Of a stretch of 57,200 bases of DNA, positions 2,676 to 18,058 are shown in pieces; within the stretch, counting starts at the first letter, position 1; every line of letters begins with the position of its first letter. Under the pieces are notes generated by a model. It had not been told where the DNA came from. It worked only from the letters and a program-made list of their open reading frames with translations, and did no database searches. The position numbers were made by a program, and so were the translations under genes. Source of the stretch: an uncultured Mycobacteriaceae bacterium (lineage in GTDB: Bacteria > Actinomycetota > Actinomycetes > Mycobacteriales > Mycobacteriaceae); the NCBI GenBank assembly GCA_902826815.1, contig CADEGF010000038.1, positions 1 to 57,200 on the forward strand, in the 5' to 3' direction.

Positions 2676-5509
2676 GCGCACACCGCGCCAAGCGCCCGTT
2701 TGTCGCGAGGACGGTCCGGGTGCTTTCGATCCCGATCATCGTGTTCTGGGCGTTACTCGCCGTGTCGACAAACACCTTCGTACCGCAGGTGGAACGGGTC
2801 GCCGAAGAACTCGCGGGTCCGATGGTCCCGTCGTATGCACCGTCGCAGGTCGGGCTTCTGCGCATCGGCGAGAAGTTCCGCGAGTCCACGTCCACTAGCT
2901 TGGCCCAGGTCGTGTTGGAGGCCGACCGTCCGCTGGACGACAAAGATCATCAGTTTTACGACGATCTGATCCAGCGGCTCAGGCACGACACCGCGCACGT
3001 CCAGTACGCCATGGATCTGTGGGGTAAGCCGATCACCGCGGCCGGAGCCCAAAGTGTCGACGGCAAGGCCGCTTACGTCTTGTTGCGCATCGCAGGTGAC
3101 AGCGGCCAGATCGAGGCGAACCAGTCCGTGCAGGCCGTGCGTCACATCGTCGACTCGAACGCCCCACCGCAAGGTTTGAAGGTGTACGTCGGCGGCGCCG
3201 CGCCGCTGGCGTCGGACACCCTGACCATCGCCAACAACAGCCTCAACAACGTCACAATCGTCGTGATCTTCTTGATCATCGCGATGCTGCTGATCGTCTA
3301 CCGTTCTGTCTCGACGGTCTTCATGCCGCTGGCTACGGTGCTGATCGAGATGCTGGTCGCCAAGGGCGTCATCGCCACCCTCGGCCATCTCGGCTACATC
3401 GAACTCTCGTCGTTTGCGGTGAACATCGTCGTCGCGCTGTCGTTGGGGGCCGGGACCGACTACGGCATCTTTCTGATGGGTCGCTACCACGAGGCCCGCC
3501 AAGCGGGCGAAAGCCGTGAGGACGCGTACTACACCGCTTTCCAGGGTGTTTCGCCGATCATCATCGGCTCGGGTCTGACGATCGCGGGGGCGGGGTTCTG
3601 CTTGAGTTTCGCGCGGCTGAACTACTTCCACACCATGGGACCGGCGGTTGCCATCAGCATGGTGTTCACGATCGCCGCCGCGCTGACGCTGGGCCCAGCC
3701 ATCTTGACCGTCGGCAGCTTGTTCCGACTGTTCGATCCGAATCGCGTGGCGACAGCGCACCTGTACCGGCGCATCGGAGCCAGTGTGGTGCGCTGGCCGG
3801 TGCCGATCCTCGCGGCCAGTTGCGCGGTCGTCATGATCGGAGCCGTCTTCGTGCCGACCTACCGGGTCAGCTACGACGACCGCAGCTACCAGCCCGCCGA
3901 CGCCCCGGCCAACCAGGCTTTCGCCGCGGCGGATCGACACTTCCCGCAGAGCAAGCTGTTCACCGAGATGCTGATGGTGGAGACCGATCACGATATGCGT
4001 AACCCGGCGGACTTCATCTCGTTGGACCGAGTAGCCAAGGCGCTCATTCGTCTTCCCGGCATCGCGATGGTGCAGAGTGTCACCCGCCCGTTGGGCCGCC
4101 CCCTGGAACACGCCACCATTCCCTACCTCTTCACTACCCAAGGCAGTGGTGCCGGCCAGCAGCTGCCGTTTGCCGAGCAGCAGAACGCCAACACCGAGGA
4201 GCAGGCCAACATCCAGGAGGAGTCAGTGGACGCCTTGAACAAGACGATCGAGCTGACCCAACGACTCGCCGACGAACTCCATGCGACGGTGTTGACCATC
4301 GACGATCTCAAACAAGTCACCGACGACTTGAATTCGCAGATCGCCAACCTTGACGACTTCATCAGGCCACTCAAGAACTACTTCTATTGGGAGCCGCACT
4401 GTTTCGACATTCCGATCTGTTGGGCGTTCCGTTCCCTCTTCGATGCGCTGGACAATATCGACAAGCTCGACGCCGATATCGCCAACGCCGCGATGTCACT
4501 GGAAGCCGTCGATGCGCTGCTGCCGCAACTGATCGCGCAGCTGAAAATCACGGCGAACGATGCCCAGGCTCTGCAGGCGATCGTCGTGAACTCCTACGGA
4601 CCGGCGAACTTGCAGTCCACCCAGACCGAGCAGACGTTCGACGATCTGATCAACGTGGGCAACGACTTCGACAAGTCCCGTAGCGACGACTTCTTCTACG
4701 TCCCGAGGGAAGCCTTTGACAACGCAGACGTCAAAACCGACATACAGCTGATGATGTCGCCGGACGGCAAGGCCGCTCGCTTCATCGTCACTCACGAGGG
4801 CAACGCGCTTGGCCCCGAAGGCGTCGAACACGTCGAAGCGATTCCCGACGCGATCAAGATTGCGTTGAAGGAGACCTCGCTGGCCGGCGCCAGGATCTTC
4901 ATCGGCGGAGCGGCATCCAATGACAAGGACATCAAGACCTACGCCGCTTCGGATCTGCTCATCGTAGCGATCGCCGCGTTCATCCTGATCTTCCTCATCA
5001 TGTTGATACTGACCCGAAGTTTGATGGCCGCGTTCGTGATTCCCGGTACGGTCGCGTTCTCGTTCGCCGGCGCATTCGGGTTGTCCGTCCTGGTCTGGCA
5101 ACACTTGATCGGGTTGCACCTGCACTGGCTGGTCTTGCCGATCACGTTCATCATCCTGGTGGCGGTCGGATCGGACTACAACCTGTTGCTGATCGCCCGC
5201 GTGAAAGAAGAAATCGGAGCCGGGTTGAACACAGGCCTGATCCGTGCGCTCGGCAGCACTGGTCGCGTCGTGACCTCGGCGGGCCTGGTGTTCGCGTTCA
5301 CCATGCTTGCGATGCTCATCAGCGATCTGAGGACGATTGGACAGGTGGGGTCGACGGTCTGCATCGGACTGCTGTTGGACACGCTGATCGTGCGCTCGTT
5401 CGTGGTGCCGTGTCTGCTGCGGATCCTCGGGCCATGGTTCTGGTGGCCCGCGCTGGTGCGGTCGCGGCCGCTACGTGAACCGACGGACTTTCCGGGAGTG
5501 ACTCGATGA
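2672..5509 (+). CDS. mmpL: MmpL-family RND transporter
   Basis: A 945-residue RND transporter of the MmpL family, started at the GTG that overlaps the mmpS stop. The first transmembrane helix (about residues 13-33) is followed by a periplasmic porter domain, a five-helix bundle containing GTDYGIFLMGRYHEAR near residue 261, a second long periplasmic domain with a predicted coiled-coil hairpin and the MmpL hallmark WEPHCFDIPIC near residue 573 (two cysteines), and the C-terminal helices with GSDYNLLLIAR near residue 834. The two Asp-Tyr pairs are the proton-relay residues of MmpL proteins. It exports a lipid, siderophore or small molecule from the inner membrane. It is coupled upstream to mmpS and downstream, by ATGA, to a small membrane protein. 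The substrate is not evident; the nearby FAD monooxygenase may modify it. Confidence 0.92.
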   Translation: MSAHRAKRPFVARTVRVLSIPIIVFWALLAVSTNTFVPQVERVAEELAGPMVPSYAPSQVGLLRIGEKFRESTSTSLAQVVLEADRPLDDKDHQFYDDLIQRLRHDTAHVQYAMDLWGKPITAAGAQSVDGKAAYVLLRIAGDSGQIEANQSVQAVRHIVDSNAPPQGLKVYVGGAAPLASDTLTIANNSLNNVTIVVIFLIIAMLLIVYRSVSTVFMPLATVLIEMLVAKGVIATLGHLGYIELSSFAVNIVVALSLGAGTDYGIFLMGRYHEARQAGESREDAYYTAFQGVSPIIIGSGLTIAGAGFCLSFARLNYFHTMGPAVAISMVFTIAAALTLGPAILTVGSLFRLFDPNRVATAHLYRRIGASVVRWPVPILAASCAVVMIGAVFVPTYRVSYDDRSYQPADAPANQAFAAADRHFPQSKLFTEMLMVETDHDMRNPADFISLDRVAKALIRLPGIAMVQSVTRPLGRPLEHATIPYLFTTQGSGAGQQLPFAEQQNANTEEQANIQEESVDALNKTIELTQRLADELHATVLTIDDLKQVTDDLNSQIANLDDFIRPLKNYFYWEPHCFDIPICWAFRSLFDALDNIDKLDADIANAAMSLEAVDALLPQLIAQLKITANDAQALQAIVVNSYGPANLQSTQTEQTFDDLINVGNDFDKSRSDDFFYVPREAFDNADVKTDIQLMMSPDGKAARFIVTHEGNALGPEGVEHVEAIPDAIKIALKETSLAGARIFIGGAASNDKDIKTYAASDLLIVAIAAFILIFLIMLILTRSLMAAFVIPGTVAFSFAGAFGLSVLVWQHLIGLHLHWLVLPITFIILVAVGSDYNLLLIARVKEEIGAGLNTGLIRALGSTGRVVTSAGLVFAFTMLAMLISDLRTIGQVGSTVCIGLLLDTLIVRSFVVPCLLRILGPWFWWPALVRSRPLREPTDFPGVTR

Positions 5510-5935: not shown

Positions 5936-6190
5936 TTACACCGCGGCGTCGGGGTAGGCGTAGCGGGTCAACAGATCCAGGAGTTGTTCGGACTCCCCGG
6001 GAGCGAGGTGGCCAACCAGGCCCGCGTCGATGCCGAGGGCACTGACGTGAGCCTCTTCAAAGACTTCGATGCCGCGGGCGGTGATGTCGGGCAGCCAGAT
6101 CCGCCGATCGTGCGGGACGCCAACGCGTTTGACGAAGCCGGCATCTTCGAACTCCGGCAGCGAAGCGGCGGGAAAGAAGGCGCTCGATGA
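5936..6190 (-). pseudogene. Decayed MarR-family regulator (C-terminal remnant)
   Basis: On the minus strand a frame from about 6190 to the stop near 5936 encodes LPEFEDAGFVKRVGVPHDRR, then the end helix with GESEQLLDLLTRYAYPD. It matches the wing and C-terminal helix of the intact MarR at 1612-2088 (GESEQLMDLLTRYTYPE). No start codon or N-terminal helix-turn-helix precedes it in frame. A further minus-strand frame at roughly 6190-6256 reads RGLVKRETPDG, which may be a displaced wing from the same or another winged-helix gene. It lies inverted relative to the intact copy, on the other side of the mmpS-mmpL operon. Confidence 0.7.
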
Positions 6191-6556
6191 CTTGTCGTCC
6201 GGCCCTTCGCTGCGGTGGTTGGTCCATCCGGTGTTTCGCGCTTGACCAGGCCGCGTTTCCGGTGATTACGACGGCAGATTGGTCGCCGATGACGGGGGCG
6301 ACCGCGCGCTGCAGGCGCTCCGTCGGCCGCGAAACAAGAATTGCGTGCCGTCGAAAAACGAAACGAGTAGTCGACTACTCGATGTATGTCGGTACTCGGC
6401 GTGCATTAATTGATCACACCGCCGGTGCGATTGCACTGGGTGCACCGACGGTGGGGGATTGCTGACTGCGGGAAGGTCCGATCACGGATGGGACGCGCTG
6501 TTCTTGTCCGTCAGCTCCCAGTCGTGATGTGAGGTCGCTCCAATTGGGAGGTGTCC
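6191..6556. other. Gene-free stretch before the 10-kb island
   Basis: These 366 bases contain no convincing gene. They hold possible scraps of a winged-helix gene on the minus strand (up to about 6256), a perfect 18-bp palindrome at 6364-6381, and the promoter region and GGGAGG ribosome site (6546-6551) for the giant gene that begins at 6557. A minus-strand frame between about 6340 and 6190 has protein-like composition but no start and no family I recognise. Confidence 0.5.
6364..6381. promoter_or_regulatory. Perfect 18-bp palindrome (operator-like)
   Basis: CGAGTAGTCGACTACTCG equals its own reverse complement over all 18 bases, with an AT-rich flank on the left. It lies 176 bp before the 1667-aa gene and about 170 bp upstream of the MarR remnant on the other strand. 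The form suits a TetR- or MarR-type dimer. The original regulator may be the decayed gene beside it. Confidence 0.5.
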
Positions 6557-9500
6557 ATGAACGATGAGACTGCACACCATGCCTCAGGTGACCTGTCGGC
6601 CATCGCGAGTCGGCTGAGGCTGGAATCGACAGCCGAACATGCAGCGCTGGAAAGGATGAGCTCACTGCTGGACGACCCGACTCTCCAGGTCCTTGAACGA
6701 GACGTGCCGGTCGATGCCACTGCATTGCTGACAGCTGCTCCCGACTGGGGCCGTGGCGGCACCCTCGCCGCATCGATCGGGCCGTTCGCCGGTACCGATG
6801 GGCGGCGCTTGTGGTTCGACTTCGTGCAGCTGACGCGGCTCGTGCCCGTGTTCCTGGCCGGCGACACGAAACCGGCGGTGCTCTTCTCGATCCGCCAATG
6901 GCCGCTGCGGGTAGGCGACTCGGTTCCCGTGCTTGAAATCCTGCGCCTACTTCAGCAGCGGTACACACTCGGGCCGGGCAGCGTGTGGATCCGTGCCGAC
7001 CTCCTCGCCGTCGGGGCTCCGCCGGACTCGTATGTCGGGCTGCGGATTGCTGAAGGCCACGTGATCTTCACACCGCGACCGGTGTCCGCCGGCGGACGTC
7101 TGACCATGCCCGCGGGCGGTCGCTGTGCGCTGGAGCTGTCGTTCGACCCGCCGACGACGGCACCTAGCGCCCTCACTGCCGGCAAGGACGCCGCCGACGC
7201 CGTCCTACAGGTGCCTGCCACGGCGACATTCGTGCTCGGTGGACACCACGCCGACGAGACTCGCGTGGCCGACGCCCACTGGGAGCTCTTCGGTCAGACC
7301 ATCGACTTCCATTGGGACAGGGCAGCGGCCCGCTACGAGCCCGATCTAAACGCCGTACTGGTTCCGATGACGCCATCGGTGGCCCAGCTCGACCCTTCAT
7401 CCGTCGAATCCACGCTCGCCGGCATCACCGGCGCGGCACCGATCGACCGGGCCGGATGGCTGCTTCCTGCCGCGACCATCGACATCACCAAACCGCCTGT
7501 AGCCGGCGGCGCAGGCGGGCTCGCCGCGCTGGGCGGCGACGGACTCTTCATGACGTGGACGGGGCTGCAAGACGGTCCCGCGCGTCTGCCTTCGCCGTGG
7601 TTCGTCCTGCTGCCGGGTGTGGCCGGCGTGCTCGACCAGCACGCCGGCAACATCTACGCCCACCAACGATTCGAACTCTGGGCAGACGCGCAGTCGCAGT
7701 TCCGCAGCGAGCTGGAGTTGCGGTGGTCCGACTCGTTCCCGGTGACCTTTGTATCGGCGGCATCGGGTGCCGACGTCGTCATCACGACCGCCGCAGTCGA
7801 CGCCCGTCTCGACCGCCCCGTCGACGTGCGTGGCACGCCGCTGCCGATCCACACGCTCGGCTCGCGGCTGAACCTCGCCGTCACCGAAGTGCCCGGCGCC
7901 GAACCGTACCGCACCGTGGCCATCCGCGACGACGACGTGCTCAACGACGCACTCCAACTTGCCGCGACGTCGTCTGTCGAGGCCGGTGGCTCGACGTCGC
8001 TGGCAATTCGCAACGCGCTCTTCACCACAACGCCCGTTGCCACCTTCACCCTGTCCGGGCACCTGCTCGATCCCGAGGTCGCCGACCACGGCACGGTGAC
8101 GCTTGGCTTCGGGCTCTACGGCCTGCTGCCCACGCTGCCCGATCCGTACGCCGCCAATGTCGGCTGGTTGCTGGCGGGCCCGTATTCGCGCCGTGTCTCA
8201 AGCGTTGCCGAGCTGCTCCTGGCAGCCGTCAACTGGACGCGTGGCGTCGACGTCGACGCCGACGACGTGGCGACCGGCTTCTCCTTTGCGCCAGTAGGCA
8301 ATCTGGCCGACATGTTCCAGCGGTGGGGCCTGGCACGCGCACATCCCGTCGCCGGCCGACCGAGCCGGGACATGACGAGCTCGATCGCCGCGACGACGAG
8401 TGGAACAAACGACCCGGCCGACGTACGCGCAAGGGCGCTCATGACTGGGCGGCAGAGTGCCGAGGCGACGTGGAACGAGTACTTCGACGTATTCGAGCGA
8501 GAGCAGTTCGCACTGCTCGACGTGTCCAGCAACGCCGACCAGATGGGCGTGAGCTTCGCATTTCAGAGCCCGCGCGGGGCGGTCGACCGCTCGCGTGCGG
8601 CCCGCGAGTTCCTCACCGCCGATGCGGAAGCCGGCCCCGACGACTTCCCGCTGCAGGTGCGCGATCTCGATCTGTCGGCCAAGAGCCGTTTCGTGCGGGC
8701 CTTCACGGTGCCGCAGATCAGCTGGGAGCCACTGGCCAACCTGACGGCACCGGACACGTCTATCGACCCGCCCTTCGGTTTCTTGTTGTTTCCCGACGAC
8801 GGCGGACCGACTCGATTGTTCAACGACGCTGCCACCGTCGTTCCGATCGCGCCGATACCCGTGCTGGAGCACCTGGAGAGCGATTTCCACGAGCGTCCCG
8901 ACGGGTTCACCGGCGGGCTGTTCACGCTTCCGTTCGGTCTGCGGGCAGCCGCAGAGTTCAGCCGCACCAATCAATTGCCCGACCGTCCGGGCACTGGTGC
9001 GAAGTTGGCCTTCAACGCCGAACGGTTCTCCGACGGGACGCTGGTCGGCGGTCTGCAACTGCGCGTCGACGCTCCGGAGAACCTGCCGGAGAGTGCGATC
9101 TTCAAAGGCGCGACGGTGCAGTCGAGTAACCTGCTGACCCCGAGCGGCACGCCGACGGGAACCGGCGCGCTCGGCGACAGCGTCGGCCAGGTCTTCAACA
9201 ACGAGTTCTTCCTCGACCCGCCAACGGGGGTGCGCAACCGCGGCGTGCCGGTGACGCGCATCGACTTCTCCGGCTATGGGGCGAGCCTGTTCAGCCGCTG
9301 GGACAACCCGAACGCCGTCGTGGCCGCCACCAGCCAGGCCCACTTCGACGTGTTCGTCGGCCGCACCGCGCACGAGGTGATCCAGATCCGCAGCCTCCTC
9401 TACCCGTGGGGGGTTCACGTCGTTCGCACCATCACGATGTTTCGCGGCAGCAACGGCTACACCTTCCGCTACGACTCCGGCTGGCAGGCCGAGAGCCCCG

Positions 9501-11560
9501 GCGTTTTCGACTTTCGTTACAAGGCCTACGACGTCGGGTATCCGCGCCCGCAGCTCGATATGCCCAGTCCGTTCGTGTTCCACCCCGGCCTGGTGCACGG
9601 CGTGTTCAACGTGCGCAATATCCATGAGACGCAGGCGGTTCCCGACTTCACCGACACCTGGAACAAGAACAACGGGGACACCTACCTCGACGGCAACAGC
9701 GTGCTCCACGTCGTCGATGCCGGAACGCCGGCAACCGACCGGACGCGATCGGTACTCCTGCGACCGGTCTACTTCGACGCTGACGTCGAGATCGAAGGCG
9801 TCACATCGGGAGCTTCCGGCGGTCGGGTGCCGTCGAAGGGGATGCTCGGATACGTTCAACTGGCGCCCCGCGGAGAGCCGATCAACGCTGCACTGTTCAC
9901 CAAATTGCTTGTGTCGCAGTTCGGTTCGATCGGCGGCTCGGTCGACTGCGGAATCGACGTGGCCGCCAGCGGCCAGCCCATGCGAATCAGCCGCGTCGAC
10001 GTGAGTCCTTCGACGGACGGGTCCGGCGGCCCGATCTTCGTCGGATCGGCACGCGGCGCGGTGACGCTGCCCAAAGACGGTTCGTGGAGTGTCGTGCAGC
10101 ACGATCAGGGCTCGGGCGAAGTGACGCCGCTCGATCCCCAGGTGCCGGTGCCCGTCGTGCGTCGCGGTGTCCTCAACGTCGCGACGGGCACAACCGACAC
10201 GACTGCCGCCGACCTGGTGCGCCTTGCCAATCCCGTCGACCTGGTGGCCGCCCTCACGTCGACCTCGCGCAACTTCGGGCTGCTGCAGTCCACCGGTACG
10301 CAGAAGGCGCTGTTCCGCCTCCCCGCCTTCAGTCAGGGTGTCGACACATTGAAGAGCGTCGCGCCGGACTTCGCCGACGCCTACCGCATCGTCAACTCGA
10401 CGTCGGTGTTCCCGAACGTCGCCGACGCAGTTCCGTTGGCGCTTGGCGGCTTCGAGACCAAGATCATCAAGGAGGGTTACAGGCTCGTCGACGCAGTGGA
10501 TCCGGACAAGATCTTCGAGCAGGTCCTGCCACGTGGCCCGCTCTTCCTCATCAACGAGTCGTTCCTCAAGCTCTACGTCGAGTACGCGCCGACGGACAAG
10601 AACGGCACCTCGCTGGGCAATGGCACCGTGAAGTACGGCTTCGATTCGGCGGCGGCAGCGACGGCCGACAAGTGGCTGGCGAAGGTCAACGACATCGGCA
10701 TGGTCGTCGACCTCGGCCCGATGCAACGAATCATGACCATCCGGGGCAAGTTCGACGCCGCCAACGGAAGCCAGCCCGGCTTCATCGAACCCGAACTGGT
10801 CTTCAGCGATGCGCTGCAACCGGTGATCGACATCCTGCAGGTGCTGCTCTCGCTCTCGACCGGGGACTATGCCGACGCCATGAAGAAGGGCCTCGACATC
10901 GCCATGAGCAACGGCGCCGACAGTTGGAACTACGCGTTGCACGCCCGCCAGGAGATCCCGGTGGTCAAGTTCCCGCCGGAACCCCTCTACAGCACGTCGG
11001 CGGTCAACCCGTTCAAGCTGGAAGCCCACCTCGCCATCGGCGTGTACTTCAACGAGACGATGGAGATCCCCAGCAGCCCAAAGCAACTCGTGCCGTCGGC
11101 AGGAGCGTTCCTGCAGTTCGGCGGAAGCCTCTCGGTGATGTGCGTCAGCCTTGCCGCCGCCACCGTCTACGCCACCGGATCGGTCGACCTCATCACCGCA
11201 GCCGATATCAAGACCGGTCCGGCACTGCACATGAAGTTCGGATTCGGATGCGAGCTCGTCGTCGGACTCCCCGTGGTCGGCGGTGTGACGGTGACCTACA
11301 TGGTGGGTGTGCAGATCGACCTGGACACCGGCTCGATCACGGTCGGCGGATTCCTTCTCTTCAGGGGCCGCGCCGAACTCCTCGGCGGGCTCGTCTCGGC
11401 GCAGATCCAGATCGAGGCCAAGGGCAGCGTCAAGCGCGAATTCGGTTCGGACAGTACCGAAATGATCGCTCAGGTCACGTTCGGTCTCGACATCAGCATC
11501 TTCCTCGTCATCAACATCAGCTTCTCGCAGAGCTGGCAAGAGTCCCGTCAGATCGCTTGA
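6557..11560 (+). CDS. Giant uncharacterised protein (1667 aa)
   Basis: I do not recognise this family. The ATG at 6557 lies five bases after GGGAGG and is preferred over a GTG at 6551. No signal peptide and no convincing membrane helix is seen, so the protein should be soluble or exported by an unusual route. Composition is rich in Asp, Ala, Val and aromatic residues with few cysteines (about four), and long stretches alternate hydrophobic and polar residues, suggesting a largely beta-sheet, multidomain structure. The last 200 residues (from about 1470) show strongly alternating strands with glycine turns (GGFLLFRGRAELLGG, AQVTFGLDISIFLVINISFS), which could form a beta-barrel or beta-solenoid. 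That reading is speculative. The next gene starts 29 bp later with its own ribosome site, after a TGAGGC/GCCTCA hairpin over this gene's stop. Codon use is strongly GC-ending, as in the host. Confidence 0.85.
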   Translation: MNDETAHHASGDLSAIASRLRLESTAEHAALERMSSLLDDPTLQVLERDVPVDATALLTAAPDWGRGGTLAASIGPFAGTDGRRLWFDFVQLTRLVPVFLAGDTKPAVLFSIRQWPLRVGDSVPVLEILRLLQQRYTLGPGSVWIRADLLAVGAPPDSYVGLRIAEGHVIFTPRPVSAGGRLTMPAGGRCALELSFDPPTTAPSALTAGKDAADAVLQVPATATFVLGGHHADETRVADAHWELFGQTIDFHWDRAAARYEPDLNAVLVPMTPSVAQLDPSSVESTLAGITGAAPIDRAGWLLPAATIDITKPPVAGGAGGLAALGGDGLFMTWTGLQDGPARLPSPWFVLLPGVAGVLDQHAGNIYAHQRFELWADAQSQFRSELELRWSDSFPVTFVSAASGADVVITTAAVDARLDRPVDVRGTPLPIHTLGSRLNLAVTEVPGAEPYRTVAIRDDDVLNDALQLAATSSVEAGGSTSLAIRNALFTTTPVATFTLSGHLLDPEVADHGTVTLGFGLYGLLPTLPDPYAANVGWLLAGPYSRRVSSVAELLLAAVNWTRGVDVDADDVATGFSFAPVGNLADMFQRWGLARAHPVAGRPSRDMTSSIAATTSGTNDPADVRARALMTGRQSAEATWNEYFDVFEREQFALLDVSSNADQMGVSFAFQSPRGAVDRSRAAREFLTADAEAGPDDFPLQVRDLDLSAKSRFVRAFTVPQISWEPLANLTAPDTSIDPPFGFLLFPDDGGPTRLFNDAATVVPIAPIPVLEHLESDFHERPDGFTGGLFTLPFGLRAAAEFSRTNQLPDRPGTGAKLAFNAERFSDGTLVGGLQLRVDAPENLPESAIFKGATVQSSNLLTPSGTPTGTGALGDSVGQVFNNEFFLDPPTGVRNRGVPVTRIDFSGYGASLFSRWDNPNAVVAATSQAHFDVFVGRTAHEVIQIRSLLYPWGVHVVRTITMFRGSNGYTFRYDSGWQAESPGVFDFRYKAYDVGYPRPQLDMPSPFVFHPGLVHGVFNVRNIHETQAVPDFTDTWNKNNGDTYLDGNSVLHVVDAGTPATDRTRSVLLRPVYFDADVEIEGVTSGASGGRVPSKGMLGYVQLAPRGEPINAALFTKLLVSQFGSIGGSVDCGIDVAASGQPMRISRVDVSPSTDGSGGPIFVGSARGAVTLPKDGSWSVVQHDQGSGEVTPLDPQVPVPVVRRGVLNVATGTTDTTAADLVRLANPVDLVAALTSTSRNFGLLQSTGTQKALFRLPAFSQGVDTLKSVAPDFADAYRIVNSTSVFPNVADAVPLALGGFETKIIKEGYRLVDAVDPDKIFEQVLPRGPLFLINESFLKLYVEYAPTDKNGTSLGNGTVKYGFDSAAAATADKWLAKVNDIGMVVDLGPMQRIMTIRGKFDAANGSQPGFIEPELVFSDALQPVIDILQVLLSLSTGDYADAMKKGLDIAMSNGADSWNYALHARQEIPVVKFPPEPLYSTSAVNPFKLEAHLAIGVYFNETMEIPSSPKQLVPSAGAFLQFGGSLSVMCVSLAAATVYATGSVDLITAADIKTGPALHMKFGFGCELVVGLPVVGGVTVTYMVGVQIDLDTGSITVGGFLLFRGRAELLGGLVSAQIQIEAKGSVKREFGSDSTEMIAQVTFGLDISIFLVINISFSQSWQESRQIA

Positions 11561-11589
11561 GGCACAAGGCCTCAGGAAGAGGAACCGCC

Positions 11590-14500
11590 ATGTTGGATCC
11601 GCGATGCAGCATCTTGACCTTCCCGCAGCGCTTCGACGGCACGCACCTGCATCTGCGGGTGCTGATCGTGCCGAAGCTCGGACCGGCCTGGGACGGCAGT
11701 CCACTGCAGCCGTTCCTCGAGAACGTGCCCGCGGCGGGCGACACCGCCGTGGCCTTTGCCGACGCCGACCTTGCGCTGGAGGCGCGGGTGCTCGACGGGC
11801 TGGGCCGCTTTCCGGTGGACACGCCGGTCGACGCCACCGTCGCGCTGCCCGATGCCAGCGGCGTGGCCACCGATGCGCGCGGCCTCTTCGAAGCGCTCGT
11901 CGCCCCGGTCGCCGGCCGGTTCACCCTCGCGGCCACGCCGCCGCGCCTGGCCGAATCGGCCGCCGACGGGATCTCGCTGCGCAAGCACCTGCCGAGCAGC
12001 TACCGCGACTCGTTCCTGTTCACCGGGCCACGGCATCCCGGCGCCACCACCGACGACAGCTACTCGTGCGCCATCGCGAACGCCGCGCCGCCCAATCCGG
12101 CATTCGTCACGACACCAGACGGGGTGAGCTGGGGCCAGATCTACGCCTACTGCCTGCGCCACCCGCAGCTGGCCCGGCGCCTCGGCCTCATCCGCGAGGG
12201 TTCGTTCGAAGTCGACGGCCGGTTCGCCGACGGCGGGTTCGTCTACGTCGACCTGGCCCACGGGAGTGACTACGCACCACAGCAGGCAGCCGAACCGACT
12301 CTGCTCTCGCGCTACGCGGCCCGCATCCCTGCGCTGGAGGCGGGCACCGCGCGTCAGCTCTTCGCGGCGGTCCAGTTCCCCGTCCTGATCGACGACCCCG
12401 CCGTACCCGGCCCGCCGCCCCTGCTCGGCAACTACGACCAGGTGTTCATCGAGGCGTCCGAATACGACGACGGGTTCGCCAAGGTGGTCCACGCCGTGCA
12501 GCCGGTGAGCCAGAACCTGTTGGCCGAGGAGCCCGACGGCTTCTCGCCCCTGACCGACATCGGCATCCGCGCCGGCTGGGACGACGAGCAGATCCTCATC
12601 TGGCAGAGCAGGCAGGTCGCGGCCGACGCGACGGTGCCTGCCATCGGCGGCGTGGCGCAGCGGCTCGACGCGCCGCTCGGCGCATTCGCCTACCGCCTCG
12701 ACGCCCGCGAGCTCGGCGACCCGGCCTGGCACTCGCTGGTCGAGGTGCGCAGCCGGGCGCCGCTCGCCCTCGACGGCATCGCCATCGGCGACCCTCCGGA
12801 CGAGCCGTTCACCGGTGAGCTCGGTGTGGAGGTGCACCCACAGTCCTTCGACGGCGTACAGCCGGCCCGCAACCTGTGGCTGCCCGCCTACCTCGCGCAG
12901 TGGAACGGGCAGTCCGTCGTGCTGCCCGACGAGATCGCGGCCGACCTGTTCCACACCGAGGAGGCCGTTGGGACGACGGCGTCACTGGGCCGCATGTACG
13001 ACGGCGTCGGTCTCGACGAGGTACCCCTGCGCTACGGCCATACCTATCAACTGAGGGTGCGGCTGACCGACCCGACCGGTGGCGGGCCGCTGCCGTCCGA
13101 CGAGCCGATCAACGCAGGCCCGTCGACAACCACCAAGGTGGAATTCGTGCGCCACGTGGTGCCGGAACGGGTCTCGCTCGCGAACCTCCCGACGTTCCCC
13201 GAGCAGCCGTCGGGGAGTCTGTTCACCGACGACGTGTTGGAGCTCAGACGGCCCGTGCTCGGCTACCCGGCCGTCATGTTCACCGGCAAGTACGCCGACC
13301 CGGTGCCGCTGCTGCAGGCCGCCTCCGATGAGGCCGTCGGCAAGGGCAGCTTCGGCATACCCGACCCCGACGTGACTCGGGTTCAGATCGTCGTCGAAGT
13401 CCAGGCGCTGCGGATGGACAATCTGCTGTCGAGCAACAAGCGCGAGCCATACGCCGAGTTGTACCGCACCGAACGGGAATTCGATCCCGCAATGGACAGC
13501 ACGCTCGAGATTCCGTTGACGTTCGACGACGCCGCGGTGCTCCGCTTCGGTGTGCCGGGCGACCTCGGCGACTTGGGCGTCACGCAGGCCGAGATCGATG
13601 CCCGCAACGATCTTCCGCTGCCAACCGCCCGGTTGATCCGCCTCACGATCATCGCCCTCGCCGACGAGGACGCGACCTACTTCGCGGAGGGCGCAAACGT
13701 CGGCAAGCCACTTCAGATCCAGGTCCGTCGCGAATCCGTCGACGAGACAGCGATGTTCGCCGCCGCGACCCCGGCCTCGATGATCCGGGCGCTGTGGCTG
13801 CAGCCCGATCCGCCCCCGTCCAACGACGGGACAATCGGTTCGCTGTTCTTCCAGCGCGGCGCCGACGCCAGTCCCAGCATCGTGGCGCGGCTGGCCGCCG
13901 AGGTCGACGTCGACGCCAAGGGCCTCACCCTCGTGGGGCGCCGCGGCGAGCGCATCGTGTTCGGTGCGGCGCGCGGCATCCGCCACACGATGGCGCCGGA
14001 CAACTCGTCGCTCACGCTGGCGGCGAAGGACGACCTCGTCAACCAGTGGATCGTCGCGCTGACGCTGCAGCTCGACCGTGACTGGACCTGGGATGGGTTG
14101 CAGCCGATCGGTTTCGACGTATTCCGCACGAAGCGGTTCAAAGGCGGCGGAGACGTCGACGACAATGCCGGCAACCCGATAGGCCAGTGGGAGGTCGTCA
14201 CGACGGCATCGCAGCTGGCCATCGACCAGGCTGATCGCACACACACTCGCCTGGTCTTCCTCGACGCCGTCGAACCGAAGCCCGCGGATCCCAACGCCTT
14301 CCCCGATGTCATCGGGCTCGACTACCGAATCGAACCGCGGTTCGCGTCACCTCCCGACGACGCCGACCCGGCGCTGGAACTCGAGGTCGAGCTGCCGGTC
14401 ACCACAGCCCCGGCCCAGGTACCGCGGATCGTGTCCGCGGGGTTGGCGTTGTCCCCGTACAGCCGCAACGACACGTACTCGGAGACGGGCGCGCGCCGCC

Positions 14501-15510
14501 GCTTCCTCTGGCTCGAACTGTCCGAAGCGCCACTCGACCCGAACGACGAGATCTTCATCCGGATGCTCGGATATGCGCCCGACCCACTCCTTTCCGACCA
14601 CCGCTTCGAGACGTTCGTGCCTCCGGAGGAGTCGCCGCTGCCGATCGACCCCGAACTCGTCCGCGTCATCAGCCCTGGGATGGCCGACGACCACGCCGGC
14701 CTCGCCGCCATGACGCGTCTGGAGGCGTCCGATGACAGCCCGACGCACTACCTCGTGCCATTGCCGCCCGGTCTCACCGTCGACAGTCCCGAGCTGTTCG
14801 GACTCTTCACCTACGAGCTGCGGGTCGGTCACGCCGACATCTGGTCGACCGCGCACGGGCGCTTCGGCCGACCGTTGCGCAGCACCGGTGTACAGCATCC
14901 CGCGCCGACGCTGTTCTGCACGGTGCAGCGCACGCGCGACGAGCTGATCGTGGAGGCGCCGTACGCCAAAGCCGTGCTGAACGGCAAGAACATCACCGCC
15001 GATCCGCCTCGAACACAGCTGTGGGTGTTGCTCTATGCCCAGGTCCGCCAGGCCGACGGTGCAGACTGGCGCAACATCCTGCTCGACGATCGGCGCCTGC
15101 GCTTGCAGCGTCGGCTGCGGCCATCCGCGAGAGAGACGTTCTTGGCCACGGCGACGCTGCCCGGAGCGTTCCAGAACCAGGACGCACCGGCGCGGGGGGC
15201 GACGGCATGGCGTCAGGACGAAATTGAGAGGCTCCTGCTTGCGCTCGGTCTTCCCGCCGATGCACCGCTGAGCGTGTTGTGTGTCGAGATGATGCCGACG
15301 TCCGCGGCGCTGCGCCCGCAGCGCTCATCGTTGCGGGAGTCGACGGTTGACGCGACCGAGTTTGCGAGTGCGATGGTCGCGCAGCGGGGTGGGACGCGTC
15401 AGGCGGTCGACACCACCGCTGATGACGAGGGGCGGCCGCTGTCGGACGAGCTGGGCCACCACCGCATCCTGCGCACGTCGCCGTTAGTGGCGGCGCCGCC
15501 GATCTGCTGA
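11590..15510 (+). CDS. Large uncharacterised protein (1306 aa)
   Basis: This gene begins at ATG 11590 after AGGAAGAGG and encodes 1306 residues I cannot assign to a named family. There is no signal peptide and no transmembrane stretch. The protein looks like a chain of beta-sandwich modules: phrases such as YGHTYQLRVRLTDPTGGG near residue 487 resemble the last strands of fibronectin-III-like domains, and proline/aspartate-rich linkers recur. The C-terminal 80 residues are more polar and disordered, and the chain ends in a cysteine (PPIC). It forms a probable operon with the 1667-aa gene (29-bp gap) and with the trypsin-like protease (75-bp gap). A structural or secreted complex cleaved by the neighbouring protease is one possible reading; there is no direct evidence for it. 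Confidence 0.85.
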   Translation: MLDPRCSILTFPQRFDGTHLHLRVLIVPKLGPAWDGSPLQPFLENVPAAGDTAVAFADADLALEARVLDGLGRFPVDTPVDATVALPDASGVATDARGLFEALVAPVAGRFTLAATPPRLAESAADGISLRKHLPSSYRDSFLFTGPRHPGATTDDSYSCAIANAAPPNPAFVTTPDGVSWGQIYAYCLRHPQLARRLGLIREGSFEVDGRFADGGFVYVDLAHGSDYAPQQAAEPTLLSRYAARIPALEAGTARQLFAAVQFPVLIDDPAVPGPPPLLGNYDQVFIEASEYDDGFAKVVHAVQPVSQNLLAEEPDGFSPLTDIGIRAGWDDEQILIWQSRQVAADATVPAIGGVAQRLDAPLGAFAYRLDARELGDPAWHSLVEVRSRAPLALDGIAIGDPPDEPFTGELGVEVHPQSFDGVQPARNLWLPAYLAQWNGQSVVLPDEIAADLFHTEEAVGTTASLGRMYDGVGLDEVPLRYGHTYQLRVRLTDPTGGGPLPSDEPINAGPSTTTKVEFVRHVVPERVSLANLPTFPEQPSGSLFTDDVLELRRPVLGYPAVMFTGKYADPVPLLQAASDEAVGKGSFGIPDPDVTRVQIVVEVQALRMDNLLSSNKREPYAELYRTEREFDPAMDSTLEIPLTFDDAAVLRFGVPGDLGDLGVTQAEIDARNDLPLPTARLIRLTIIALADEDATYFAEGANVGKPLQIQVRRESVDETAMFAAATPASMIRALWLQPDPPPSNDGTIGSLFFQRGADASPSIVARLAAEVDVDAKGLTLVGRRGERIVFGAARGIRHTMAPDNSSLTLAAKDDLVNQWIVALTLQLDRDWTWDGLQPIGFDVFRTKRFKGGGDVDDNAGNPIGQWEVVTTASQLAIDQADRTHTRLVFLDAVEPKPADPNAFPDVIGLDYRIEPRFASPPDDADPALELEVELPVTTAPAQVPRIVSAGLALSPYSRNDTYSETGARRRFLWLELSEAPLDPNDEIFIRMLGYAPDPLLSDHRFETFVPPEESPLPIDPELVRVISPGMADDHAGLAAMTRLEASDDSPTHYLVPLPPGLTVDSPELFGLFTYELRVGHADIWSTAHGRFGRPLRSTGVQHPAPTLFCTVQRTRDELIVEAPYAKAVLNGKNITADPPRTQLWVLLYAQVRQADGADWRNILLDDRRLRLQRRLRPSARETFLATATLPGAFQNQDAPARGATAWRQDEIERLLLALGLPADAPLSVLCVEMMPTSAALRPQRSSLRESTVDATEFASAMVAQRGGTRQAVDTTADDEGRPLSDELGHHRILRTSPLVAAPPIC

Positions 15511-15544
15511 GGGTGCCGATGAATGTGCGCTGAGACCAGATGTC

Positions 15545-15574
15545 AATGTGGCAGAAGGGAATGTGGCAGAAGGG
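15545..15574. repeat. Tandem 15-bp direct repeat before the protease gene
   Basis: The 15-mer AATGTGGCAGAAGGG is present twice head to tail (15545-15559 and 15560-15574), directly before the ribosome site of the protease gene at 15586. Each copy brings an AGAAGGG purine run. The duplication may have arisen by replication slippage and could alter translation or spacing from the upstream gene. Confidence 0.85.
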
Positions 15575-15585
15575 AAAGGCCGGAG

Positions 15586-16527
15586 ATGTTGCCAGAAAGA
15601 CCGATACCGGTTCCACAGGATGCTATCGACGCCGTAGTTTCGTTGCGTGATCGGTTGAACGCAGAATATGCCGGCAAGTACACGGTTGGCGTTGGGCTGA
15701 AGCAGATAGGTACGGAGTACACCGATCAGATCGCCATCTGCGTCCAGGTTCAACATAAGAAGCCTGTTGACGACGTCGCGCGAGACGAGCTCGTTCCACC
15801 CGAGTTTGGTTCGTATGTCACGGATGTCGTCGAGTTGCGGCCGGTTCTCGCCGATGACAACGCGCCCTACGATCCGCTGCGCGGCGGCATCCAGATTTCT
15901 AGAAATTCTGATGACGGTGTGATCGCTCCGCCGTCAGGCACATTGGGAGCGATAGTCAACAATCGCGGCACCGGGAAAGCACAAGCGCTGACGAATGCCC
16001 ATGTCGTGAAACAGTCCGGCAGGACGGTCTTTCAACCGGGACAGGCGCAGCCGACTGCGTCTGTTATCGGCACAGTGGGTGCATTGCAGTGGACGCCCAA
16101 TTATCCCTATCCGTACTATCTCGACTGCGCAGTCGTCGACCTCGATGATTCCCTCAACCCCCCAGAAACTTCTGTGCAAGACATCGGCCCTGTGCAGGGG
16201 GTAGCCACACAATTGCCCATGCTGGGTGAAGTGGTGAAAAAGCGCGGCATGCGGACCTCACGGACCGACGGCTTCGTGGTGGCAATCATGAACACCGGCA
16301 CCGCGCCGGTCTACGACCAGTTTCTGATCAGCGGTGCCGTTCCCTTTGTCTCAGTGTGGGCAGGGAAGGGCGATTCGGGATCGGTCGTGCTCAATGCCAG
16401 CGATGAGGTAATCGGCCTCCTTTTCGCGATTCATGATCCTGATCTCGGTGTTGACATCGGAAGTCGCGGTATGGCGATGCCGATCTACGCTGTGCAGGAG
16501 GCGCTTCAGGTCGACATCGCGACTTAG
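15586..16527 (+). CDS. Trypsin-like serine protease without signal peptide
   Basis: A 313-residue protein with a chymotrypsin-fold protease pattern: TNAHVV with His139, LDCAVVDL with Asp180 and GKGDSGSVV with Ser264 form the expected triad in order. The first 60 residues carry an alpha/beta lead (IDAVVSLRDRLNAEYAGKYTVGVGLK) of the sort found before protease domains of NAL1-like and other non-secreted trypsin relatives. No signal peptide or transmembrane segment is visible, so it is not a typical HtrA/PepD. ATG 15586 follows a GGAAAGG ribosome site and tandem 15-bp repeats; an upstream in-frame start at 15523 would translate those repeats into a Cys/Arg-rich tail and is rejected. Third codon positions are visibly richer in A and T than in the two large genes before it. 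Its position as third gene suggests it processes one of those proteins. Confidence 0.85.
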   Translation: MLPERPIPVPQDAIDAVVSLRDRLNAEYAGKYTVGVGLKQIGTEYTDQIAICVQVQHKKPVDDVARDELVPPEFGSYVTDVVELRPVLADDNAPYDPLRGGIQISRNSDDGVIAPPSGTLGAIVNNRGTGKAQALTNAHVVKQSGRTVFQPGQAQPTASVIGTVGALQWTPNYPYPYYLDCAVVDLDDSLNPPETSVQDIGPVQGVATQLPMLGEVVKKRGMRTSRTDGFVVAIMNTGTAPVYDQFLISGAVPFVSVWAGKGDSGSVVLNASDEVIGLLFAIHDPDLGVDIGSRGMAMPIYAVQEALQVDIAT

Positions 16528-16564: not shown

Positions 16565-18058
16565 TTACTTCTCCCAACCTAATGCGATCCAGGTGGTCTT
16601 GAGGCCGGTGTACTTGTCGAGGGCATGTAACGACAGGTCGCGTCCGAACCCGGATTGCTTGAAGCCTCCGAACGGCGTCTGCGCACTGAGCGCGTCGACG
16701 GTGTTGACCGACACCGTGCCCGCGCGCAGCGCGGCCGCAACACGATGCGCCCGGGAGAGGTCTGTGGTCCACACAGAAGCAGCCAGGCCGTAGACAGTGT
16801 CGTTGGCCATCCGGATGGCCTCGGGCTCGTCGTCGAACGTCTGCACCGCGAGAACTGGACCGAACACCTCCTCGGTGACCAGCTCGGCGGTGGGCGCCAG
16901 ATCGGTGACGATCGTCGGAGCGATGAAGCAGCCTCTTCCGTCGACCGTCTCCCTCTGCCCGCCCATCACGATCCGCCCTTGCGAGCCGGCGCGGTCAATG
17001 AAGCCGAGCACGCGTTGGGTGTGCTCCTCGTCGACGATCGCACCAAGTACCGACGCCGGGTCCAACGGATTTCCCGGCGTCATCGCCGTGGCCTGCTCGA
17101 TGAGCCGGCTCAGGAATTCTTCCGCGATCGGCGCGTGCAGGAGGAGTCGGGAATTCGACGAGCACACCGCGCCCTGGTTGTAGAACGCGCCGAAGATCGC
17201 CTTCTCGACCGCCGCGTCAAGGTCGGCATCGTCGAAGACGACATTCGGGCTCTTGCCGCCGCACTCCAGCCAAACCTGCTTGGCATTGGAGTCCGCCGCG
17301 TAGCGCAGGAAGCGCTTTCCGGTCTCCGTCGACCCGGTGAAGGCGATGACGTCGACGTCGCAGTGGCGCCCCAACGCCTCGCCCGCATTCGGTCCAAGGC
17401 CGGGCACCACGTTCAGCACGCCGTCCGGAACGCCGGCCTCGACGGCCAATTCGGCCAGCCTGATCGACGAGAGGGGTGCCTGCTCAGCGGGTTTGAGGAC
17501 GACACTGTTGCCCGCGGCGAGCGCAGGCGCCACCTTCCAGACTGCAAGGTCCAGTGGGAAGTTCCACGGTGTCACGGCACCGATGACGCCAAGCGGCTCC
17601 CTGGTCACCAAGGCGAGGTTGCCGGGTTCGGTCGGCGCGATCTCGCCGCTCTGCTTGTCGATCGCCTCGCCGTAGAACGCGAAAAGGTCAGCGGCCGAGG
17701 GCACGTCGACGTTGTGCGCCTCTTCGACGAGCTTGCCCATGTCCATCGAGTCCAGCACCGCCAGTTCGTGGCTGTGCTCGGTGATGAGCTCGGCCAGTCG
17801 TTGCAGCACCTTCTTGCGGCGGCTGGCCGAGGTCTGCGACCACGAGCCGGCTTCGAACGCCGCACGCGCGGAAGCGACGGCGGCGTCCACGTCGGCTGCC
17901 TCGCCCGACGACACCGGGGCGATCACTTCACCGGTGGCGGGGTTCACCGAGTCGAAGGTCGCGCCGGACGTCGCAGCGCGGAAGCCGCCGTCAATGAAAA
18001 TCTCTGTACGAGGCTTGATCTCGTCAGCGATCCGGGTCCAGTCGTCAAGCGTGGTCAT
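16565..18058 (-). CDS. NAD(P)-dependent aldehyde dehydrogenase
   Basis: A 497-residue aldehyde dehydrogenase of standard length. It shows the proline-rich loop around TPWNFPLDLAVWK, the Rossmann segment FTGSTETGKRF, the general base motif LECGGKSPNVVFDDADLD and the catalytic Cys near residue 299 in NQGAVCSSNSR. These enzymes oxidise an aldehyde to the carboxylate with NAD or NADP. Its ATG overlaps the stop of the flavoprotein at 18055-20190 by ATGA, so the two are co-translated. The pair suggests that an amine is oxidised to an aldehyde, which this enzyme then removes. Sequence style recalls the betaine-aldehyde and gamma-aminobutyraldehyde dehydrogenase branch, but the substrate cannot be fixed from sequence alone. 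Confidence 0.9.
   Translation of the reverse strand: MTTLDDWTRIADEIKPRTEIFIDGGFRAATSGATFDSVNPATGEVIAPVSSGEAADVDAAVASARAAFEAGSWSQTSASRRKKVLQRLAELITEHSHELAVLDSMDMGKLVEEAHNVDVPSAADLFAFYGEAIDKQSGEIAPTEPGNLALVTREPLGVIGAVTPWNFPLDLAVWKVAPALAAGNSVVLKPAEQAPLSSIRLAELAVEAGVPDGVLNVVPGLGPNAGEALGRHCDVDVIAFTGSTETGKRFLRYAADSNAKQVWLECGGKSPNVVFDDADLDAAVEKAIFGAFYNQGAVCSSNSRLLLHAPIAEEFLSRLIEQATAMTPGNPLDPASVLGAIVDEEHTQRVLGFIDRAGSQGRIVMGGQRETVDGRGCFIAPTIVTDLAPTAELVTEEVFGPVLAVQTFDDEPEAIRMANDTVYGLAASVWTTDLSRAHRVAAALRAGTVSVNTVDALSAQTPFGGFKQSGFGRDLSLHALDKYTGLKTTWIALGWEK

Follow-up and report, generated by a model that had tools for sequence, protein, structure and literature searches.

A new family of tandem giant gene pairs in an uncultured Mycobacteriaceae bacterium, with distant relatives on plasmids

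Introduction

In the twin-arginine translocation (Tat) hitchhiker complex PaoABC, partners without a signal are exported by a Tat-bearing one, and Tat substrates measure 20–70 Å (PMC4273604). Such complexes are among the closest described systems to a locus analyzed here in DNA of an uncultured Mycobacteriaceae bacterium (contig CADEGF010000038.1, positions 1 to 57,200; this whole stretch of 57,200 nt is called the window). The locus comprises two giant genes, A and B, followed by the gene of a trypsin-fold serine protease, C:

6557..11560, plus strand: gene A, open reading frame (ORF) of 1667 amino acids (aa), first member of a conserved giant pair
11590..15510, plus strand: gene B, ORF of 1306 aa, second member of the pair
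15586..16527, plus strand: gene C, trypsin-fold serine protease, local neighbour outside the conserved unit

In part of the superfamily to which A and B belong, a Tat-like signal is located on one subunit and the adjacent partner has none, as in the hitchhiker complexes HybOC and PaoABC (PMC4273604). Compared with these complexes, A and B are far larger, contain no recognised cofactor domain and carry no signal in the window's group. Single-chain beta-barrels (OmpG, the beta-domains of autotransporters, LptD) resemble A in the long antiparallel amphipathic meander predicted for its tail, but A occurs in monoderm lineages too, has no sequence match to them and bears no export signal in the window's group. 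B is likened to FN3/Ig arrays and alpha-2-macroglobulin-like proteins by local FN3-like matches of its model, whereas no Pfam match, global fold match or signal peptide was found for it. C shares the catalytic triad and above-cut-off matches to Pfam Trypsin_2 and Trypsin with the trypsin-like S1 proteases; it differs from them in about 140 N-terminal residues outside the Pfam matches, and no signal peptide was seen.

Results

A and B form a mobile, co-evolving gene pair

One genome per species (84,980 genomes) was scanned with two peptide patterns, which gave 301 stretches; 148 of these encode B relatives, and the best 80 were kept. Plasmid records added four loci, so that 85 loci were found through B, the window included. 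Many of the loci are metagenome bins, and single organism labels may therefore be wrong. A was followed by B on the same strand in 82 of the 85 loci. The gap between the genes was at most 120 bp in 71 of the 82 paired loci and wider in ten, L073 being without a measurement; the wide gap in L003 is due to a broken A. The three loci without A are the contig edges L036 and L037 and the plasmid L005, which has a fragment of B only.

Family alignments were made of A with 70 relatives and of B with 80 relatives. Among the best-conserved stretches of A is the following:

9245..9502, plus strand: A residues 897–982, from the alignment of A with 70 relatives

The pairwise distance matrices of A and B were correlated with r 0.95 over 70 loci, and none of 1000 permutations gave a value as high. 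Labels from eight phyla are attached to the 81 B proteins in the tree (58 of 81 Bacteroidota; the labels of the window and plasmid proteins were assigned by us), and these labels require 15 changes on the tree, the minimum possible being 7. Taken together, the co-occurrence in 82 of 85 loci, the label changes and the co-variation of distances indicate that the two genes travel and evolve jointly. The original prediction, made for this stretch from its letters and ORFs, had proposed a large assembly or effector pair, and the proposal of two parts of one large assembly is well based in the co-occurrence and the co-varying distances.

The window-type pair (group I) is rare and patchy. B was found in 1 of 198 sampled genomes of the host's genus and A in 1 of 119 host relatives, in both cases the host itself. 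The window B groups with two Acidobacteriota rows with full Shimodaira–Hasegawa-like support in the FastTree tree, which was flagged for long branches and composition, also in the row of the window. Judging from this grouping, the window pair was probably acquired by horizontal transfer.

Broken copies of the pair were seen on plasmids: A lies in two frames in Tistrella (L003:11288-15987) and in Rhizobium (L099:10583-14906), and the fragment of B in L005 belongs to a plasmid of Microvirga sp. VF16 (L005:16191-17225).

Two distant groups of tandem giant genes

When the B profile was searched against 396 genomes of the host's phylum, the window, one true relative (G335) and two weak matches in frames of 1354 and 1303 aa were obtained, and both weak matches have a second giant gene upstream. 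When the upstream giant was used as the query, this tandem arrangement was also detected in plasmids from Streptomyces, Cupriavidus, Rhizobium and Diaphorobacter (group II, the Streptomyces/Cupriavidus type; six of eight records were inspected). Group III consists of plasmid-borne pairs of about 3,040–3,300 and 1,770–1,900 aa in Sinorhizobium, Ruegeria and Rhizobium, and it also occurs on an Agrobacterium vitis plasmid, where B is in two annotated pieces; for this group five more of 15 records were inspected, including L105 from R. leguminosarum, in which an A-like piece is present and a profile search gave no match to B. In total, 24 distant loci have an A-like gene, 23 of them with a B-like gene; in these pairs the A-like gene precedes the B-like one, both being on one strand.

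The B proteins of groups I and II were aligned by hhalign with a probability of 97.2, and the tails of their A proteins (region A 1547–1667) with a probability of 82.6 over 114 columns; the crossed A–B controls gave 0.1 and 0.2. B is linked to the distant groups, by hhalign and by whole-genome profile search, through the following region:

12547..13161, plus strand: B residues 320–524, from the GWDDEQ motif to LRYG..Y..RVRL.D..GGGP

In the host genome the window B was the only match of the group II B profile (E 1.2e-4; 2 of 22 candidates scored), and in six of six further genomes, with all candidates scored, the window-type B was the sole match, with E values of 1e-6 to 1e-12. Group III is tied to group II through profile matches for both genes. 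Homology among the tandem giant genes of groups I, II and III is thus supported by profile comparison, and the pairs of this superfamily range in size from about 2,200 to 5,200 residues.

With the group II profile, matches were found in at least 13 of 396 genomes of the host's phylum (at least two window-type), in at least 2 of 239 genomes in the class of a Caballeronia genome and in at least 2 of 250 in the class of a Bradyrhizobium genome (at least one window-type each). These counts are lower bounds, as at most two candidates were scored per genome, and one class search missed a match in G631 that scoring of all candidates shows.

One of the matches in the host's phylum, from a genome of the host's own genus (G048, locus L135), is a group II pair with frames of 1305 and 1422 aa; a single genus thus contains two branches of the superfamily. 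On a conjugative plasmid of Sinorhizobium meliloti (L102:8173-22864), type IV secretion genes are located upstream of a pair of 3052 and 1766 aa.

A and B match no family in the libraries searched

No family of Pfam or NCBIfam was matched by A or B even at E 5. When relatives were scanned singly against Pfam (27 A and 28 B), no family recurred from one member to another at E 0.5 and only stray single matches were seen, and none of ten proteins of the distant groups (6 A, 4 B) had a Pfam match over the cut-off. PDB profile searches with the A and B profiles gave nothing credible. The original prediction had recognised no family for either protein, and this holds in all three libraries. The PADLOC defence models gave no match for B and best E values of 0.043 for A and 0.012 for C; a known anti-phage defence system was ruled out on this negative result. 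Within open-licence papers, a literature search by accession and locus tag found no paper, and one by description gave no title on the pair among those listed; AlphaFold DB was outside this search, and a description may exist. Named by none of the family libraries used, A and B are regarded as a new gene-pair family, although their function may yet prove to be of a known kind.

Structure models of A and B

Single-protein structure prediction and Foldseek searches, which had been proposed as a check, were run on A 468–1667 and B 112–1306. The AlphaFold2 model of A had a mean predicted local distance difference test score (pLDDT) of 81.4 and a predicted template modelling score (pTM) of 0.70; for B, a mean pLDDT of 85.8 and a pTM of 0.61 were obtained. 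Neither model had a global match among the PDB matches listed. The earlier description of A as ending in alternating beta-strands, and of B as sandwich-like, was borne out by the two models.

Locally, the B model was matched by IL-10R2 (probability 1.00, template modelling score by target (TMt) 0.42) and contactin-4 (probability 1.00, TMt 0.31), and alpha-2-macroglobulins were listed as well; 28 B proteins scanned against Pfam at E 0.5 gave no FN3, Ig or A2M match. The model suggests that B carries FN3/Ig-like beta-sandwich domains. For A, the lowest E values (1e-5 to 1e-3) were those of SlpA, LptD and ushers, but with a template modelling score by query (TMq) of about 0.08 and a root-mean-square deviation above 20. 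The best local matches of A were OmpG (probability 1.00, TMt 0.45, E 0.018) and BrkA (probability 0.97, TMt 0.37, E 0.035), and ApoB100 was also listed. The end of A was delimited as follows:

11012..11551, plus strand: A residues 1486–1665, predicted long C-terminal amphipathic antiparallel beta-meander, overlapping the region (1547–1667) through which A is tied to the distant groups, from AlphaFold2 strands, face analysis and hhalign

In the tail 1486–1648, seven of eight long strands showed a family-averaged Kyte-Doolittle difference of at least 3.3 between their two faces, compared with 2 of 17 earlier A strands and 5 of 12 B strands (Mann-Whitney p 0.007, for a comparison picked post hoc). 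The models thus suggest a strongly amphipathic beta-meander at the end of A, with which a barrel, an open sheet and a sandwich are all compatible.

Tat-like signals are found on part of the distant A proteins

A Tat-like N-terminus was found on A in 6 of the 24 distant loci by a first rule and in 5 of 24 by a second, with a union of 8 of 24 that takes in all four group III pairs; by eye, the A of L139 has an additional twin-arginine signal. On B, a Tat-like signal was found in 1 of 23 distant loci (L094), within a conserved strand. Among the ORFs flanking window-type loci, 8 of 494 were positive by the second rule (three or more of the eight are, by eye, Tat proteins of DUF1501 type), and by this rule the frequency on A is high in comparison (Fisher 1.4e-4). 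A small gene annotated tatA follows the pair in S. meliloti (L102).

In the window's group, no Tat-like signal was detected on any of 71 A or 81 B proteins. None of these 71 A and 81 B proteins had a hydrophobic N-terminus either, in agreement with the earlier observation that A and B are without a signal peptide.

Upstream of the pair in three Bacteroidota loci (L012:2639-4261, L014:3157-4776, L085:3111-4844) there is a same-strand gene with a Tat signal, DUF1501-type by Pfam tally and by eye, and in each of the three it is preceded by a DUF1800-like gene (by eye).

The protease gene C is a local neighbour of the pair

The lengths and coordinates of A, B and C on one strand were confirmed, with gaps of 29 bp between A and B and 75 bp between B and C, taking the start of C at 15586. 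The frame of C is open from 15523, and 15586, preceded by a purine-rich stretch, is its likeliest start. C matched Pfam Trypsin_2 with 28.3 bits (cut-off 27.6) and Trypsin with 22.7 bits (cut-off 20.6). Motif positions counted from 15586 agree with the predicted triad His139-Asp180-Ser264, and with H139, D180 and S264 intact C is a trypsin-type S1 protease.

The three genes had been presented as one island with a dedicated activating protease. However, C-like genes were found in none of the 84 other window-type loci (E 1e-3; in 73 of the 84 the sequence extends 1.5 kb or more past B), nor were any found in the distant loci (E 0.01, ORFs of at least 150 aa). A search for co-occurrence in other genomes had been suggested; it returns A with B (82 of 85) and never a C-like gene (0 of 84), and the conserved unit is A and B only. 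A three-gene unit was rejected on these absences, and the claim of activation by a dedicated protease was not supported. Among 61 host relatives, C was found in one, the host itself. To judge from these comparisons, C is a local neighbour, neither a required activator nor a member of a conserved unit.

Relatives of C were found in four plasmid records. In two of these, from Paenibacillus and Gemmatirosa, other giant genes or frames adjoin C: on plasmid pART37 of Paenibacillus sp. 37 (L164:2401-16083) the C relative directly precedes three giant genes, and in Gemmatirosa (L163:11747-27175) three C-like frames lie near giant frames. Seven giants and frames of these two records, compared by hhalign with reversed-sequence controls, showed no detectable homology to A or B. 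For the two rhizobial records, the annotation shown places no giant pair next to C.

Flanks of the window pair and neighbours of its relatives

The two features that had been named as bounds of the island were both present:

~5936..6151, minus strand: regulator remnant, C-terminal part only, without a start or DNA-binding half, MarR-like by eye only
6364..6381, no strand: perfect 18-bp palindrome upstream of A, possibly an operator or a minus-strand terminator

To the left of the island lies an MMPL transporter gene (TIGR00833, 883 bits against a cut-off of 875), from which the host was judged to be an actinomycete. To the right, in convergent orientation, are aldehyde-dehydrogenase-like and old yellow enzyme (OYE)-like genes, the top NCBIfam matches of which were under cut-off. 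The OYE-like gene (18055-20190) has a second copy with 63% identity on this contig (C38:59092-61152), at a distance of about 39 kb, its remaining listed matches having at most 34% identity; given this duplication, the right flank may be accessory DNA too.

Clustering of the flanking ORFs revealed no conserved third gene, and shared neighbours were mostly inside Algoriphagus. The broadest flanking cluster covered 18 loci, with members on both sides and both strands, one of them annotated as a histidine kinase. In a Pfam tally of 79 neighbours (among the 121 nearest listed), no family had more than five members, cNMP_binding being the top one (25 of 94 families shown). A catalase gene adjoins the pair in L002 and L003; neither of these two genes was within the tally, and catalase was not among the 25 families shown. 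In L035 and 11 other Algoriphagus loci, the pair lies beside Crp-type, UspA-like and TauE-like genes (names by eye), in some loci also with a sulfide-quinone-reductase-like gene (by eye), which is a stable neighbourhood of that genus. The next gene downstream in a Sphingobacteriales locus (L056:15051-15977) is type 2A encapsulin shell-like, the family being taken from the tally and the locus by eye.

Near the A-like gene, a patatin-like phospholipase was seen in L099:20418-22931 and a zinc-dependent phospholipase C in L104:4813-6615, and an S8 peptidase lies near the A-like piece in L105:3692-5464. An adjacent hydrolase as an exchangeable effector was rejected, as only single cases were found.

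No relative of B was found in 50,697 phage records, and none was among the 23 pattern matches in IMG/VR; a phage search with a distant A gave no relative. Foldseek searches of BFVD gave weak matches (TMq at most 0.12 among the matches listed). A phage or viral origin was rejected on these results.

Discussion

The pairing and co-variation of A and B, the homology of the three groups and the Tat-like N-termini of some A proteins are accommodated by a reading to which we give a probability of roughly 40%: A and B would be subunits of one beta-rich complex, with the tail of A facing a membrane or lipid. Some members of the distant groups would export this complex, whereas in the window's group it would not be exported, or not by Tat. 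In this reading, a horizontally moving two-gene operon would produce the two subunits of one large complex. B would form an array of FN3/Ig-like domains, and A a larger beta-rich body whose amphipathic beta-meander end, an open sheet or a barrel, would contact the membrane or lipid. As the distant A often has a Tat signal and B has none, folded A, perhaps with B bound, would be exported by Tat in the distant groups and work outside the cytoplasm. As the Tat signal is absent in the window's group, the complex there would stay in the cell or be freed by lysis. The folds and the amphipathicity are predicted, and we infer the binding of A to B, the membrane contact, the co-export and the role. The original prediction of a large assembly or effector pair activated by a protease would then stand in its part on a paired assembly and be given up in its part on protease activation.

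Several results weigh against this reading. The A groups are linked through 114 columns at 82.6%, and Foldseek gave TMq values of at most 0.14 among the 50 PDB matches listed for each model. Five of the 12 long B strands are strongly amphipathic too, and the last A strand (1652–1665), with a difference of 2.25, lies outside both compared sets; the tail of A may thus simply be a buried sheet of an ordinary kind. The difference in Tat frequency between A and B has a p value of 0.10 by the second rule, 0.055 by the first and 0.013 for the union, and since none of the 71 window-type A proteins has a signal, Tat export is no shared trait. Moreover, an A–B complex, with an estimated size of about 320–570 kDa, would be too large for the 20–70 Å range given for Tat substrates in PMC4273604, unless it is elongated.

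The same findings could be read as an antagonism complex, secreted or released by lysis, in which the A meander would form a beta-pore in a target membrane and B would serve as a targeting or scaffold arm, with adjacent hydrolases as optional parts. The patchy spread with plasmids, some of them conjugative, the Tat-like signal that some A proteins of the superfamily bear and the hydrolases near the pair in single loci (the window trypsin, L099, L104 and, near the A-like piece, L105) are in line with it; but no conserved third gene was found, hydrolases are common genes seen here in single cases, and no known pore-former was matched in Pfam or in PDB profiles, so we consider this reading unlikely. 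An intracellular or periplasmic lipid carrier, in which a hydrophobic sheet of A would hold lipid as in ApoB/vitellogenin and B would close or scaffold it, would explain the one-sided hydrophobicity of the A tail, and ApoB100 and LptD are among the weak Foldseek matches of A. Two distant A proteins also gave sub-threshold Pfam matches to the vitellogenin beta-sheet shell (E 0.19) and to apolipoprotein (E 0.067). These matches are far under cut-off, however, with TM-scores of about 0.1 for the structural ones, and among the clusters and families seen there is no lipid-metabolism gene that constantly accompanies the pair; a lipid carrier is judged distinctly unlikely.

A protease-activated three-gene effector, in which C would cleave A or B and thereby trigger assembly, is suggested by the position of C directly after B on the same strand at 75 bp, by its intact triad and by the giant genes or frames adjoining C relatives in two of four plasmid records. 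It is improbable, given that the 84 other pair loci and the distant loci yielded no C-like gene and that the giants beside other C relatives are not A or B homologues by hhalign. Derivation from a phage tail or contractile injection system, as a remnant or a component, would fit the large size and beta-rich nature of A and B, and some tail-fibre names occur among the weak viral Foldseek matches. That explanation is largely refuted and extremely unlikely, as relatives of B were absent from the phage records and the IMG/VR matches, as were relatives of the distant A from phages, no phage family is prominent among the neighbour families shown and the listed BFVD matches are weak.

If the reading as a beta-rich two-subunit complex is extended, A and B might be the prototype of a new class: a giant two-subunit envelope or extracellular machine, spread by plasmids, in which a Tat-exported A with a membrane-active beta tail carries an Ig-like giant partner, the signal having been lost or never gained in the window's branch. 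We regard this wider proposal as doubtful. If the relatives truly export such giants by Tat, the size limit of the Tat machine would be put to the test. The A–B superfamily is open to experiment in Cupriavidus metallidurans CH34, Sinorhizobium meliloti, Streptomyces, Algoriphagus and Chitinophaga. A gene pair so large, present in eight phyla and on plasmids and with A and B co-evolving, should repay its cost to the host.

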